Positions 21,994-37,379 of a DNA stretch of 48,014 nt are shown here, one piece after another. The notes under the pieces were generated by a model that saw only the letters and a list, made by a program, of their open reading frames with translations, did not search any database and was not told the origin of the DNA. The position numbers and the translations under genes were made by a program. Source of the stretch: Elusimicrobiaceae bacterium (GTDB lineage Bacteria > Elusimicrobiota > Elusimicrobia > Elusimicrobiales > Elusimicrobiaceae); the NCBI GenBank assembly GCA_017501565.1, contig JAFVWP010000125.1, forward strand, positions 1 through 48,014. Reading direction: 5' to 3'. Every line of letters starts with the position of its first letter. The stretch's first letter is position 1.

Positions 21994-22881
21994 ATGAAAC
22001 AAGGAATGAACTTTCAAGACATTATTTCTTCTCTCAATGACTATTGGAAGAAGCAAGGCTGTATTTTAGTACAACCCTATGATATGGAAAAGGGTGCCGG
22101 GACGTTTAACCCCGCCACCGTTTTAGGTGCCTTAACCAAGACGCCCGTCAACCGCGCTTATGTGGAACCTTGCCGCCGCCCCGCCGACGGCCGCTACGGC
22201 GAAAACCCGAACCGCTTGGGTAAATATTATCAGTACCAGGTTATCATGAAGCCGGCCCCTGCCGACATTCAGCAAATCTATTTAAACTCTTTAAAAGCCA
22301 TCGGTTTAGACCCGCAAGAGCATGATATTCGTTTTATTGAAGATGATTGGCAATCCCCCACGCTCGGCGCGTCCGGTGTAGGTTGGGAGATTTGGTTAGA
22401 CGGCATGGAAATTACCCAATTTACGTATTTCCAAAATATGGCCGGCTACTCTTTAAACCCCATCACCGTGGAAATTACTTACGGATTGGAACGTATCGCT
22501 ATGTACTGCCAAAAAGTGGACAATGTGTTTGATATTCGTTGGAACGACCAAGTAACCTATCGCGACGTTCACTACGAAAACGAACGCCAATTTTCCCACT
22601 ACTATTTTGAACAATCCAACGTGGAACACTTGCGCCGTTATATTCAAGAAGCAGAAGAAGAATGCCACGCCTTATGTAAAAAAGGCCTGTATCTGCCGGC
22701 CTACGAATGTGCCATGCGTGTTTCGCATTATTTCAATATGTTGGAAGCACGCGGTGCCATTTCCGTATCGGACCGCACCAATATCATCACTAAAATACGC
22801 AACTTGGCCAAAGCCTGCGCCAAAGTATATGTAGAAAGCGTAGAACCCAAAGAAGAAAAGAAAGAGGAGGCTGCCCAATGA
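21994..22881 (+). CDS. glyQ: Glycyl-tRNA synthetase alpha subunit
   Basis: Catalytic class II subunit of the alpha2-beta2 glycyl-tRNA synthetase. Conserved stretches include NDYWKKQGCILVQPYDMEKG, the AYVEPCRRPADGRYGENPNR segment and GWEIWLDGMEITQFTYFQ. The length is 295 residues from 21994. A second ATG at 22006 (MNFQDIISSL) is equally close to the usual family N-terminus; the promoter places transcription start at about 21993, favouring the first ATG as a leaderless start. The C-terminal tail is Glu/Lys-rich. It overlaps glyS by 4 nt. Confidence 0.95.
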   Translation: MKQGMNFQDIISSLNDYWKKQGCILVQPYDMEKGAGTFNPATVLGALTKTPVNRAYVEPCRRPADGRYGENPNRLGKYYQYQVIMKPAPADIQQIYLNSLKAIGLDPQEHDIRFIEDDWQSPTLGASGVGWEIWLDGMEITQFTYFQNMAGYSLNPITVEITYGLERIAMYCQKVDNVFDIRWNDQVTYRDVHYENERQFSHYYFEQSNVEHLRRYIQEAEEECHALCKKGLYLPAYECAMRVSHYFNMLEARGAISVSDRTNIITKIRNLAKACAKVYVESVEPKEEKKEEAAQ

Positions 22882-24959
22882 ATAACGCCTTTTTAGAAAT
22901 CGGTTGCGAGCATTTGCCCTCCCGTTTTGTAAAACCCGCCTTGAGCCAAATGGAAAATTTGGCTAAAACCTTGTTGGACGAAAAACGCATTGCCTATCAA
23001 AATGTCAGCGCGTTCGGCACTTACCGCCGTTTGTGCGTTATCATTGAAGGAATTGCCGATAAATCGGCCGATATTCAAAAAGAAGTCAAAGGCCCCCCCG
23101 CCAAGCTCTTAAAAGATGCCAACGGCGCCTTTACCCCCCAAAGTGCCGGCTTTGCACAAAGAAACGGCATCAAGCCCGAAGATTTAATTATTAAAGAAAC
23201 CGAAAAAGGCCCCTTTATTTATGCGGATTTGCATATTAAGGGAGAAAAAACAGCCCATCTTTTACCGGAGATTTTTGTCGGTATTATTACCGGTATGGAA
23301 TTTGCCAAAAATATGGTGTGGGAAGAAAGCGGCTTAAAATGGGGTCGCCCGATACGCAGTTTAATCGGTTTATACGGCAGTAAAGTGGTGCCGTTTGAAG
23401 TAGCGGGTGTTAAGTCCAACCGCTACACCTACCCCATTACTTCTTTCGGTCGCAAACCTATTCGCGTAGAAAAAGCCGACAAAGAAGCCTATGTGCAATT
23501 ATTAAAATCCCAACCGCAGCCGATTTTGGTCCTGCCGCAAGACCGCCGCGAAGCCTTAATCCGCAGTGTGATGAGCGAAGCCAAAGCCCGCGGTTATCAT
23601 GCGGATTTAGACCAAGATTTAATAGAAGAAACCATCTATTTCACCGAACACCCGGTAGCTGTTTGCGGCGATTTTGATTTAAAGTTTTTGACCTTACCCA
23701 AAGCATTCATCGGAACAATTTTCAAAACCCAACTTAAAATGTTCCCGGTGGTCAACGAAAGCAGCGAAATCCAGCCCTATTTTATCGCTGTCAGAGACGG
23801 CGTATCAAACAATCAAGACGAAGTCCGCAACGGATTTAAGAAAGTAATGTCTGCGCGTATGTCCGATGCCGTATTCTTCTATGAAAACGACAAAAAAGAA
23901 GGATTGGACCATTTCAAAAATAAACTTGCGGAAAGAACTTTCTTGGAAGGGTTGGGTAATTTATTGGAAAAATCCGACCGCACGCGCGAACTTGCCATGT
24001 GGATGTGCGACCGCTTAAATGAAAACGCCATCAAAGACAGCGTCACCTATGCCGCCGGATATGCGTATGCGGATTTGGCCAGCTCGGTCGTTTACGAGTT
24101 TCCCGAATTACAGGGGTATATGGGCGGACGTTATGCTGAATTGGAAGGACATAAAGAAGAAGCCCGCGCAATTGAACAGGTCTATTTCCCGCTTTCGTCC
24201 AACTCTGACTTGCCCGACACCTTAACGGGTGCATTGGTTTCTTTGGCGGGCAAATTGGACACTTTAGCCGGCAACTTTATCATCGGGCAAATCCCTACCG
24301 GCAGTGAAGACCCGTTTGCCTTGCGCCGCCAAGCGTTTGGCGCGGTACGCATTTTATTGGAAAGCGGCATCAACCTTTCCTTGCAAGAGTTGATTGAAAA
24401 AGCGCTGTCTTTATATAGCGGTAAAGAAACTGCCGAAGCCGAAAAAGCATTAAAAGACTTTTTCTATCAACGCTTGGCCCTGTTAATGCAACAACGCGGT
24501 CATCAGCCTACCAGCTTAAACGCGGTCAATCATTGGTACTCCATGCCGTTGGAAAACGTAGAAACGCTTATCCAAGTATTGGAAACCAACCGCCAAGGCG
24601 AATCTTTCGCCGCCGCGGCAGAAGCGGCCAAACGCGTGTGTAACATCTTGAAAAAAGCCGACATCACCACCGATAAAGTAGATGCTTCGCTATTTCAATT
24701 ACCGGCTGAAAAGGAGCTATTTGATGCCGTGGAAAAAGCAGAAAGCATTGTGGCTTTATTTTCTGCCGGCTGTCAGAGCAAAACAGAATGCGAGAAAACA
24801 TTATCCGTCTGTGCAACCTTTGCCCAACCTTTGGCAAAGTTTTTCGCCGATGTAATGGTAAACGCTGAAGATGTTTCCATTCGCCAAAACCGCTTGGCTT
24901 TGTTAGCCCGTGTGCGCAAAATATTAACGCAAGGCATGGCGGATATTACCAAGCTGTAA
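22878..24959 (+). CDS. glyS: Glycyl-tRNA synthetase beta subunit
   Basis: Tetrameric-type GlyRS beta subunit, responsible for tRNA-Gly recognition. The N-terminus NNAFLEIGCEHLPSRFVKPA, the VKGPPAKLL segment, MEFAKNMVWEESGLKWGRPIR near residue 140 and the C-terminal anticodon-binding region (VMVNAEDVSIRQNRLALLARV) are diagnostic. At 693 residues it is full length. Its ATG overlaps the glyQ stop (ATGA), and GGAGG just upstream inside glyQ acts as ribosome site. Confidence 0.97.
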   Translation: MNNAFLEIGCEHLPSRFVKPALSQMENLAKTLLDEKRIAYQNVSAFGTYRRLCVIIEGIADKSADIQKEVKGPPAKLLKDANGAFTPQSAGFAQRNGIKPEDLIIKETEKGPFIYADLHIKGEKTAHLLPEIFVGIITGMEFAKNMVWEESGLKWGRPIRSLIGLYGSKVVPFEVAGVKSNRYTYPITSFGRKPIRVEKADKEAYVQLLKSQPQPILVLPQDRREALIRSVMSEAKARGYHADLDQDLIEETIYFTEHPVAVCGDFDLKFLTLPKAFIGTIFKTQLKMFPVVNESSEIQPYFIAVRDGVSNNQDEVRNGFKKVMSARMSDAVFFYENDKKEGLDHFKNKLAERTFLEGLGNLLEKSDRTRELAMWMCDRLNENAIKDSVTYAAGYAYADLASSVVYEFPELQGYMGGRYAELEGHKEEARAIEQVYFPLSSNSDLPDTLTGALVSLAGKLDTLAGNFIIGQIPTGSEDPFALRRQAFGAVRILLESGINLSLQELIEKALSLYSGKETAEAEKALKDFFYQRLALLMQQRGHQPTSLNAVNHWYSMPLENVETLIQVLETNRQGESFAAAAEAAKRVCNILKKADITTDKVDASLFQLPAEKELFDAVEKAESIVALFSAGCQSKTECEKTLSVCATFAQPLAKFFADVMVNAEDVSIRQNRLALLARVRKILTQGMADITKL

Positions 24960-24975: not shown

Positions 24976-25010
24976 AAAAACCCCGTTTTACGACGGGGTT
25001 TTTCTTTTTT
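24976..25010 (+). terminator. Terminator of glyQ-glyS
   Basis: Stem AAAAACCCCGT / ACGGGGTTTTT (24976-24986 with 24993-25003) followed by a T-rich run, 16 nt after the glyS stop. Confidence 0.85.
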
Positions 25011-25020
25011 AATTTCCCCC

Positions 25021-25048
25021 TTGATTTTTTATTTATTTCCCTTATACT
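25021..25048 (+). promoter_or_regulatory. Sigma70-type promoter of an RNA gene
   Basis: TTGATT (25021-25026), 16-nt spacer, TATACT (25043-25048). No open reading frame of gene size follows on this strand before the terminator at 25373. Confidence 0.65.
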
Positions 25049-25054
25049 AAGTAG

Positions 25055-25404
25055 TAAGTTAGTCCCGGGTCCGATGTAGTGCGGGGCTTGTATGACTGCT
25101 AGATGTGAGAGGTTGGACCGCTGTTGAGCTTCGTTTATGGGCGGATGTGAGAGCCGAAAACGAAGGTTGCAAGGAAGTGCCGTTGATGGTGGCCGCGGAT
25201 AGAGTGTGTCTTCTGTGCGGCAGTTAGCGGTAGGGCTGTGCAGACGCGGCGGCAGTAGCGGAGGTTGATGTAATTGGTTCGGCCGATGCGAAGTGAGCGG
25301 TTGACGGGCATCCGAAGCGTAAATCGTCGGAGCTGACTAAAAAAGGAAGATGAAATGAACGAAACGAAGTGACCCCCCGATGGGATATCGGGGGGCCTTT
25401 TTGT
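25055..25404 (+). ncRNA. Candidate structured non-coding RNA of about 350 nt, family unknown
   Basis: This is the only gene-free stretch longer than 300 bases in the window. It has a promoter at 25021-25048 and a strong terminator at 25373-25403. The sequence between is G-rich and self-complementary. Ends can close: AGTTAGT (25057-25063) with GCTGACT (25332-25338), counting G-U pairs. Internal stems: CTTCGTTT (25129-25136) with AAACGAAG (25158-25165); GCCGC (25192-25196) with GCGGC (25217-25221); TTCG plus GATGC (25278-25289) with GCATCCGAA (25308-25316). GATGTGAGAG occurs twice (25102 and 25144). I looked for hallmarks of RNase P RNA, tmRNA and SRP RNA and did not find them. A five-codon ATG-AAC-GAA-ACG-AAG-TGA with an upstream AAGGA lies just before the terminator; its relevance is unclear. 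Confidence 0.6.
25373..25403 (+). terminator. Terminator of the candidate ncRNA
   Basis: Perfect 9-bp stem CCCCCCGAT (25373-25381) with ATCGGGGGG (25387-25395), loop GGGAT, then CC and TTTTT. The T run is on the plus strand only, so it serves the RNA and not the convergent lipoprotein gene. Confidence 0.9.
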
Positions 25405-25416
25405 GGGAAAATAAGT

Positions 25417-25875
25417 TTATTCGTCTAGCACACTCGGCGGCGGTAAAGCACCGCTTGTGTATGGGTCGGCATCGGAAGATGACGGCACCGCTTTTGCCCC
25501 TACATTTAATTCTTGCGCTTGAGCGCGGTCTAATTCTTCTTGGCTGGGGGGCAAATCTTCTTCTTGCGTTTGGGATTGGGTCGGGCTTTGCGGGGTCTGT
25601 TCCACCGCTAAGCCGCCTTCTTGTTCGCCGTCCGTTTCCGGTAAAGGGGTTAAACGCATTTCTTCATATTCTTCAAAGGCGGGCTCAAAATGTTGCTCTA
25701 TCGGTTCTTCTTCCACCGGTTGGCTCTCCGGCACGGCTACGCGGGCGGGAGCCGCCTTTTGGGGACGGCTAACAGCTTGGTCCCCCCCATACGCACCCGA
25801 AGGGTTCCACCACGCCGGCGGTGTGCCCGCACAAGCCGTTAAAAAGATAAAAACAAACGGAAAACTTTTTTTCAT
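25417..25875 (-). CDS. Small Pro/Glu-rich lipoprotein, function unknown
   Basis: A 152-residue protein with a lipoprotein signal: MKKSFPFVFIFLTAC, lipobox LTAC with lipidated Cys15. The mature part is low-complexity, acidic and proline/glutamine-rich, probably disordered, with a conserved-looking start (AWWNPSGAYGG). No catalytic motif. It starts 3 nt after the stop of the frameshifted membrane-protein gene, with a distant GGAG site 12 nt upstream, and is likely the third gene of lipA-membrane protein-lipoprotein. Confidence 0.75.
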   Translation of the reverse strand: MKKSFPFVFIFLTACAGTPPAWWNPSGAYGGDQAVSRPQKAAPARVAVPESQPVEEEPIEQHFEPAFEEYEEMRLTPLPETDGEQEGGLAVEQTPQSPTQSQTQEEDLPPSQEELDRAQAQELNVGAKAVPSSSDADPYTSGALPPPSVLDE

Positions 25876-26544: not shown

Positions 26545-27441
26545 TTATTCAGATAATTTACGGCTTAAAACAGCCGCTTTATACAAAGCACCCGCGCGGT
26601 AACTGCTACGCACTAAAGGTCCGCACGCGGCCCCTAAAAACCCGATAGAAAGTGCATATTCTTCCCACATTTTATATTCTTGCGGTTCGGGATAGCGAAG
26701 CACCGGGTGATGCTCTTTGGACGGGGCTAAATATTGTCCGATGGTCAGCAAATCCACCCCGCTATTGCGCAAATCTTGCAAAGTGGCTTTCACTTGATCC
26801 TGTGTTTCCCCCAGGCCCAACATCAGGCCGGACTTGGTAAAAATATGCGGTGCCACTTTTTTGGAATGGGCCAACAAATCCAAAGAGCGTTTATAATCTG
26901 CCCCCACTCTTACGCGCTCATACAACGCGGGCGTAGTTTCTATATTATGCGCCAAGACGGACGGACCGGCCTGTAATACTTTTTCTAAACTTTCTTTTTT
27001 ACCACAAAAATCAGGCACCAAAGGCTCGGTTTTTACCTGGGGAGTCAACGCATAAATAGCACCGATCACACGCGCAAAGTGTTCTGCTCCGCCGTCGGAT
27101 AAATCGTCGCGCGTAGGGGAGGTAAGCACCGCATAAGCAATTCCCCATTCTTCAACCGCCTTAGCCACTTGCTCCGGTTCGTTTTCATCAGGCGGCAATG
27201 GGGTCTGTTTGGTTACGGCACAAAATTTGCAGCCGCGCGTACAAATACCGCCCAAAATCATAAAAGTAGCATCACCGCAGTTAAAACATTCGCCGCGGTT
27301 GGGGCAACGCGCTTCCACGCATACACTATGCAAAGCACGTCTGTCTAACGAGCTTTGGGCCGCCAAAGCACGCTGCGTACGAAGCGCGGCCTTGTTTTTA
27401 CCGACCATTTCTTTTAACCATTGCGGAATTCGTGCTGTCAT
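26545..27441 (-). CDS. lipA: Lipoyl synthase
   Basis: Radical SAM enzyme that inserts two sulfurs into octanoyl groups on lipoyl domains. The auxiliary cluster cysteines are Cys41, Cys46 and Cys52 (CVEARCPNRGEC), and the radical SAM CxxxCxxC is Cys67, Cys71, Cys74 (CTRGCKFC). The C-terminal RSSY serine ligand is present. At 298 residues it is full length. lipB is not next to it. No Shine-Dalgarno precedes the ATG; a TATAAT box shared with the divergent spoIID gene lies 9 nt upstream. Confidence 0.96.
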   Translation of the reverse strand: MTARIPQWLKEMVGKNKAALRTQRALAAQSSLDRRALHSVCVEARCPNRGECFNCGDATFMILGGICTRGCKFCAVTKQTPLPPDENEPEQVAKAVEEWGIAYAVLTSPTRDDLSDGGAEHFARVIGAIYALTPQVKTEPLVPDFCGKKESLEKVLQAGPSVLAHNIETTPALYERVRVGADYKRSLDLLAHSKKVAPHIFTKSGLMLGLGETQDQVKATLQDLRNSGVDLLTIGQYLAPSKEHHPVLRYPEPQEYKMWEEYALSIGFLGAACGPLVRSSYRAGALYKAAVLSRKLSE

Positions 27442-37306: not shown

Positions 37307-37379
37307 GGGCGTGTAGCTCAGCTGGGAGAGCGCCTCGTTCGCAACGAGGAGGTCGTCGGTTCGATCCCGATCACGTCCA
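37307..37379 (+). tRNA. tRNA-Ala, anticodon CGC
   Basis: Complete cloverleaf of 73 nt: acceptor stem GGGCGTG / CACGTCC, D arm GCTC...GAGC, anticodon stem CCTCG / CGAGG with loop TTCGCAA (anticodon CGC, reads GCG), and T arm GTCGG-TTCGATC-CCGAT. The acceptor stem contains G3-U70, the main alanine identity element, and discriminator A73. The 3' CCA is not encoded (ACTTT follows), so it must be added after transcription. A terminator follows 12 nt later. Confidence 0.96.

Follow-up and report, generated by a model that had tools for sequence, protein, structure and literature searches.

We found that the gap downstream of a glyS gene in an Elusimicrobiaceae genome holds a structured RNA gene, and that this RNA ends in a five-codon open reading frame (ORF) whose start, stop, length and distance to the terminator are conserved across homologues while its peptide is not. 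The lack of any Rfam match, together with helices that covary, supports a previously undescribed RNA family restricted to one genus, and no description of such an RNA turned up in the literature we searched (open-access articles only). Throughout, the window is the whole stretch of DNA analysed, 48,014 nt of contig JAFVWP010000125.1. Transcription of the RNA is inferred, without transcription data; its start is inferred from the -10 box and its end is set at the T run, with no experimental proof of either. The neighbouring genes, which we take to be glyS, a lipoprotein gene and lipA, are named from general knowledge. Features of the locus in window coordinates are:

22878-24959, + strand: glyS (glycyl-tRNA synthetase beta chain), syntenic neighbour
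24976-25003: the terminator of glyS itself
25021-25048, + strand: promoter, with -35 TTGATT (25021-25026), a 16-nt spacer and -10 TATACT (25043-25048)
25055-25402, + strand: structured RNA gene
25059-25076, + strand: 5' arm of closing helix P1, UUAGUC plus CGGGUCCGAUG, partner 25325-25340
25093-25100, + strand: 5' arm of helix P2, partner 25296-25303
25129-25165, + strand: hairpin P3, CUUCGUUU (25129-25136) with AAACGAAG (25158-25165)
25142-25156, + strand: inner hairpin of P3, CGG..CCG, with a conserved GAUGUGAGAG loop
25263-25284, + strand: core hairpin GGUUGAUGUAAUUGGUUCGGCC, the most conserved element, with an outer stem whose sequence differs among clades
25296-25303, + strand: 3' arm of P2, pairing with 25093-25100
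25319-25326, + strand: conserved internal-loop motif, GUAAAUCG in the window and AUAAGUC in most relatives
25325-25340, + strand: 3' arm of P1, CGUCGGAGCU-GACUAA
25343-25349, + strand: Shine-Dalgarno sequence AAGGAAG, within a linker predicted to be unpaired
25355-25372, + strand: five-codon micro-ORF ATG AAC GAA ACG AAG TGA (MNETK)
25373-25402, + strand: intrinsic terminator directly after the stop codon of the micro-ORF, a perfect 9-bp stem (25373-25395) followed by TTTTT (25398-25402)
25417-25875, - strand: small predicted lipoprotein gene, convergent syntenic neighbour
26545-27441, - strand: lipA-like gene, beyond the lipoprotein gene

An earlier note, made from the sequence alone, had placed an unidentified structured non-coding RNA at 25055-25404 on the + strand, with its own TTGATT-16-TATACT promoter and a perfect 9-bp terminator, with no gene-sized frame on that strand, and in the only gene-free stretch longer than 300 nt. 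All of these held except the purely non-coding label, which failed in part owing to the conserved five-codon ORF at the 3' end; the note had overlooked this micro-ORF and its Shine-Dalgarno sequence (together 25343-25372). About one promoter-like match is expected by chance per 1.2 kb (0.9), but a TTGA..-TATAMT promoter stands at the equivalent position in homologues with enough upstream sequence. The window's ORF list contains no gene-sized frame on the + strand of 25055-25404. The gap between the neighbouring ORFs, at 458 nt, is the largest in the window, and the other gaps of more than 300 nt in a rough ORF chain are filled by yidD-like, rpmH-like and HAD-family ORFs. Across species the RNA ranges in length from about 220 nt (L102) up to about 545 nt (L010).

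The RNA has a conserved, covarying structure. Its + strand folds more stably than every one of 100 shuffled sequences (z -3.59, versus z -2.04 for the - strand), and changes on both sides of a pair were observed across the window's clade and its sister in 5 of 11 pairs of P1, 5 of 8 pairs of P2 and 7 of 8 pairs of P3. For the 14 sequences of these two clades (clade A/B), RNAalifold produced 57 pairs, 22 of which changed on both sides compared to 11.3 by shuffling, a count reached in none of 500 shuffles; 96.0% of cells were paired, compared to 35-45% when partners were slid. In clade C, with RNAs of about 480 nt, 29 of 141 pairs were compensated and 97.9% paired, again reached in 0 of 500 shuffles. 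The shuffle counts ignore relatedness and the slide control does not, and the two agree, although each structure came from the alignment on which it was tested and is biased towards it. We also compared, across distant clades, the pairing of each RNA's own arms with the mean for swapped arms, and found that own pairing exceeded the swapped mean in 44 of 51 cases for the P1 arms and likewise in 44 of 51 for the outer stem of the core hairpin. In the four clade-A copies, including the window's, the outer core stem is not shown by this swap test. These results bear out the internal helices and the closing pair between the RNA's ends that the earlier note had drawn, and a covariation check of the kind it proposed returned compensated pairs beyond the shuffle controls. 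Its exact repeat of GATGTGAGAG at 25102 and 25144 is present in the sequence, yet failed as a feature, because only the second copy, in a hairpin loop, is conserved.

No known RNA family accounts for the gene. A cmscan of the window with 4227 Rfam families at gathering thresholds matched only a tRNA (37307-37379) and left the RNA without a match, and ten homologue loci likewise yielded nothing at the gathering threshold. When the limit was relaxed to E<=10, a single chance match fell in the RNA body (12.6 bits, E 9.1), and the remaining matches arose from the glyS terminator rather than the RNA. RNase P RNA (RF00010) has no match in the window and the genome's own copy lies at C4:24375-24710 (207.6 bits); tmRNA (RF00023) has no match here and its own copy lies at C5:25833-26178 (132.3 bits). 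Neither SRP RNA (RF00169, RF01854) nor 6S RNA (RF00013) matched the RNA at E<=10. The earlier note had likewise seen no RNase P core, tmRNA tag or tRNA-like end, or SRP S-domain motif, and its suggestion of a new family or a highly divergent known member is supported. We considered whether the core hairpin resembles 16S rRNA and dropped the idea, as the likeness fails in other clades (not computed).

The RNA could in principle be a lineage-specific 6S or SRP RNA altered beyond recognition, in keeping with the absence of RF00169, RF01854 and RF00013 matches from its own genome and from relatives. We consider this very unlikely. The same models also miss across the whole order, including genomes in which this RNA was not found, so that they probably fail in this phylum; the RNA itself gives not even a weak match; in the sister genus, the glyS-lipA slot lacks an RNA of this kind; and neither class is known to carry a terminal ORF. 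The exclusion nevertheless rests on lack of resemblance only, as the true genes were not located. Separately, the Rfam models identified no 6S or SRP RNA in any of 13-31 Elusimicrobiota genomes, the window's included, and such genes may be very diverged or overlooked by the models.

The family is confined, as far as we searched, to one genus. BLASTN recovered full-length copies at 84-86% identity in two relatives and the shared core in more, and in a search of 84,980 species genomes the core motif GGTTGATGTANWTGSTTCGGCC occurred on 20 contigs, whose titles read Elusimicrobiales, Elusimicrobiaceae, Elusimicrobium or simply uncultured bacterium. The genus (gut Elusimicrobiaceae) and the phylum were searched with a covariance model of the RNA's 3' half (R1). 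Within the genus, 56 of 66 genomes had a match at E<=1e-6; 2 of 36 good-quality genus genomes (G001, G063) had no convincing match. Outside the genus, a phylum sample of 295 genomes gave no convincing R1 match. Three of the weak matches outside (L115, L116, L117) proved on reading to be unrelated terminators, and those inside (L112, L113) were other terminators. Phage records and viral contigs, when searched, contained no match to the RNA. A pilin-like gene directly follows glyS in the sister genus, and no RNA of this kind is seen in the sequence 3' of glyS there.

Gene organisation shows the RNA to be a stand-alone gene and argues against its being the leader of a conserved downstream gene. 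It occupies a single syntenic slot, between glyS and the lipoprotein-lipA pair: of 54 extracted homologues, 48 follow glyS on its own strand and/or precede the convergent lipoprotein gene and lipA, 5 are inverted within that slot (L095, L102, L105, L109, L111), and 1 is on a contig without a visible neighbour. All 53 placed copies converge with their downstream neighbour where it is visible, the inverted copies facing glyS; because the downstream neighbour is convergent in both orientations, there is no gene for the RNA to lead. A riboswitch or attenuator leader would require a co-directional downstream gene, a condition that is not fulfilled here. In the attenuator version, a ribosome translating the micro-ORF would open the terminator and let transcription continue into the neighbour; in its favour, the geometry is such that a ribosome on the stop codon would extend over the stem's 5' arm. 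However, read-through into a convergent neighbour, whether glyS or the lipoprotein gene, would yield only antisense RNA, and we disfavour this explanation as very unlikely. Gene-sized inserts separate glyS from the RNA in four homologues (L005, L006, L010, L015), at least one of them pilin-like (L010, on the reverse strand).

The 3' tail has the same order in the homologues: P1 is followed by a linker carrying either AAGGAAG or AGGAG, then by AUG, four further codons, a stop and the terminator stem. The ORF is exactly five codons long in 54 of 56 homologues, the exceptions being L104 (8-9 codons) and L110 (4 codons), and the stop is TGA in 43, TAA in 7 and TAG in 6. Among 36 distinct five-codon ORFs, all begin with ATG, all close with a stop triplet, TGG never taking its place, and each of the twelve inner positions carries 3-4 different bases. 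The five ORFs that end in G all have A before it (TAG), for which the chance is 462/376,992, or about 0.001, by a hand count that ignores kinship. Base-shuffled tails give the arrangement 0.0013 (0.13%) of the time, compared to 42 of 44 representatives. Spacing is constrained as well: in each of the 54 extracted homologues the terminator stem begins 0-2 nt past the stop, and in 52 of the 54 it lies 18-20 nt from the A of AUG. The window's linker is unpaired in the predicted fold from the Shine-Dalgarno sequence through the ORF start, and the whole stretch from P1 to the terminator stem, 32 nt, is predicted to be mostly unpaired; the clade with RNAs of about 480 nt has a longer linker between P1 and the Shine-Dalgarno sequence. 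In shortened homologues (L102, about 220 nt, and L111) much of the body is lost and the promoter, core hairpin, micro-ORF and terminator are kept. These two may be viewed as a natural minimal form of the RNA.

The ORF is thus shown to be conserved in its start, stop and length and in the spacing from AUG to terminator, and not in its peptide: the 56 homologues encode 35 different peptides with no invariant residue besides Met, and MKGRP, MYSCC and METSR share almost no residues. A rival reading is that the gene makes an mRNA coding for a functional pentapeptide, such as a signal, a toxin or a ribosome inhibitor, with the 300-500 nt structure as a long regulatory leader. In its favour, the Shine-Dalgarno sequence, start and stop are conserved, related species often have a peptide in common (MKEST in 9, METSR in 9), a second RNA family described below encodes peptides similar to these (MEQSTN, MEESTN), and 3 of 8 single-base differences between ORFs are synonymous. 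Against it stand the diversity of the peptides and the fact that neither neighbour, lipoprotein gene or glyS, resembles an export or receptor gene. We regard this rival as unlikely; because sister species often share a peptide, some constraint on the peptide remains possible.

The RNA resembles several known systems in part. The raiA motif, ROOL, GOLLD and OLE are large structured bacterial RNAs whose function is unknown or only partly known; they likewise span hundreds of nucleotides, covary strongly and form single-gene families discovered through comparative genomics (PMC11706538, PMC12286853); in contrast, the present RNA is genus-restricted, lacks an Rfam match and bears a length-locked five-codon ORF at its 3' end. 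tmRNA is a single-gene structured RNA of similar length with a short ORF, but here there is no tRNA or tmRNA match and the genome's tmRNA lies elsewhere. Dual-function RNAs, of which RNAIII and SgrS are examples, and peptide-linked RNAs also combine a structured part and a short ORF in one molecule. By the standards for dual-function small RNAs, the Shine-Dalgarno sequence, start and stop are conserved as they should be, and the conserved peptide is missing. The ORFs of the yfr6 and Downstream-peptide motifs are typically 17-100 aa with signs of conserved coding sequence (PMC2864571), whereas here the ORF is five codons of free sequence at the extreme 3' end. Minigenes are defined by an ORF of a few codons with its own Shine-Dalgarno sequence, which the tail satisfies, ribosome binding and translation being inferred. 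Published cases are the two-codon mini-ORFs of the axe-txe leader and the six-codon mini-ORF of the EHEC LEE4 leader, where a ribosome-occupied Shine-Dalgarno sequence protects the mRNA from RNase E and the peptide is unneeded (PMC8708949). The LEE4 minigene offers the nearest published principle, although these minigenes act in cis in leaders of downstream genes and our ORF comes last in a stand-alone RNA, with no gene following it. RNA-discovery work labels motifs of a Shine-Dalgarno sequence plus terminator as uORFs or sORFs (PMC6429828), a practice that could overlook RNAs of this type.

We propose that the gene encodes a trans-acting folded RNA with a ribosome-landing module at its 3' end, a reading to which we give slightly less than even odds, its function and expression being unproven. 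The module would be the roughly 32 nt, mostly unpaired, between P1 and the terminator stem, with the Shine-Dalgarno sequence, AUG and five-codon ORF. A ribosome would initiate at the micro-ORF, make at most a throw-away pentapeptide and halt at the foot of the terminator, and selection would act on start, stop, length and AUG-to-stem distance rather than on the peptide. At initiation a bacterial ribosome covers the mRNA to about +16, so that with 18-20 nt from AUG to stem it would sit just before the terminator stem; by the same inferred geometry, the 32-nt stretch in the window matches about one ribosome footprint. Ribosome engagement would then be the purpose, either stabilising the RNA or carrying its folded body to ribosomes. 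Translation of the micro-ORF, ribosome engagement as its purpose and action in trans are all inferred, without ribosome profiling or binding data. Two observations sit uneasily with the proposal: a fixed length and an in-frame stop are surprising if only ribosome binding mattered, and L104 and L110 break the length rule. There may be roles for active translation or termination that this reading does not capture.

A plainer alternative is an ordinary trans-acting RNA whose Shine-Dalgarno-AUG-stop tail serves 3'-end protection or quality control and has no role in the specific function. We hold this to be possible but rather unlikely: Shine-Dalgarno occupancy at a published minigene stabilises an mRNA (PMC8708949), and the tail behaves as a separate module that persists as the body shrinks. 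However, stabilisation alone leaves the five-codon length and the distance to the stem unexplained. Our data do not separate protection of the RNA from an action on translation. Even with a merely protective tail, the RNA would constitute a well-supported new family in this phylum, for which we found no RNA-discovery work in the literature searched (open access).

The ribosome-landing reading can be taken further, to a categorically new class of folded, trans-acting RNA whose five-codon 3' ORF, free in sequence and fixed in length, lets it dock on initiating ribosomes, with the ribosome, rather than a peptide or a base-paired mRNA, as its partner and with at least two such families in the genus. 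We lean against this bolder version. Its logic would be akin to that of 6S RNA acting on RNA polymerase. If it is true, bacteria possess RNAs that use the ribosome as an evolved handle through an ORF conserved in length and not in content, which would give RNAs a new route to sensing translation or acting on it, and the order Shine-Dalgarno, AUG, N12, stop, terminator would provide a search rule for RNAs now filed as plain non-coding.

The second RNA of like design came from a second, non-syntenic match in G088 (L114), which led to another stand-alone RNA gene at L114:2150-2720. It is about 370 nt long, with a TTGATTT-TATACT promoter and a six-codon ORF before the terminator; its ORFs encode MEQSTN, MEESTN or MEESTK and stop at TGA or TAA. 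BLAST did not find it in the window's genome, and detected it, whole or in part, in 16 genomes of the genus, with loci (L137-L145) on G088:C8, G062:C10, G082:C2, G005:C18, G077:C4 and G034:C1.
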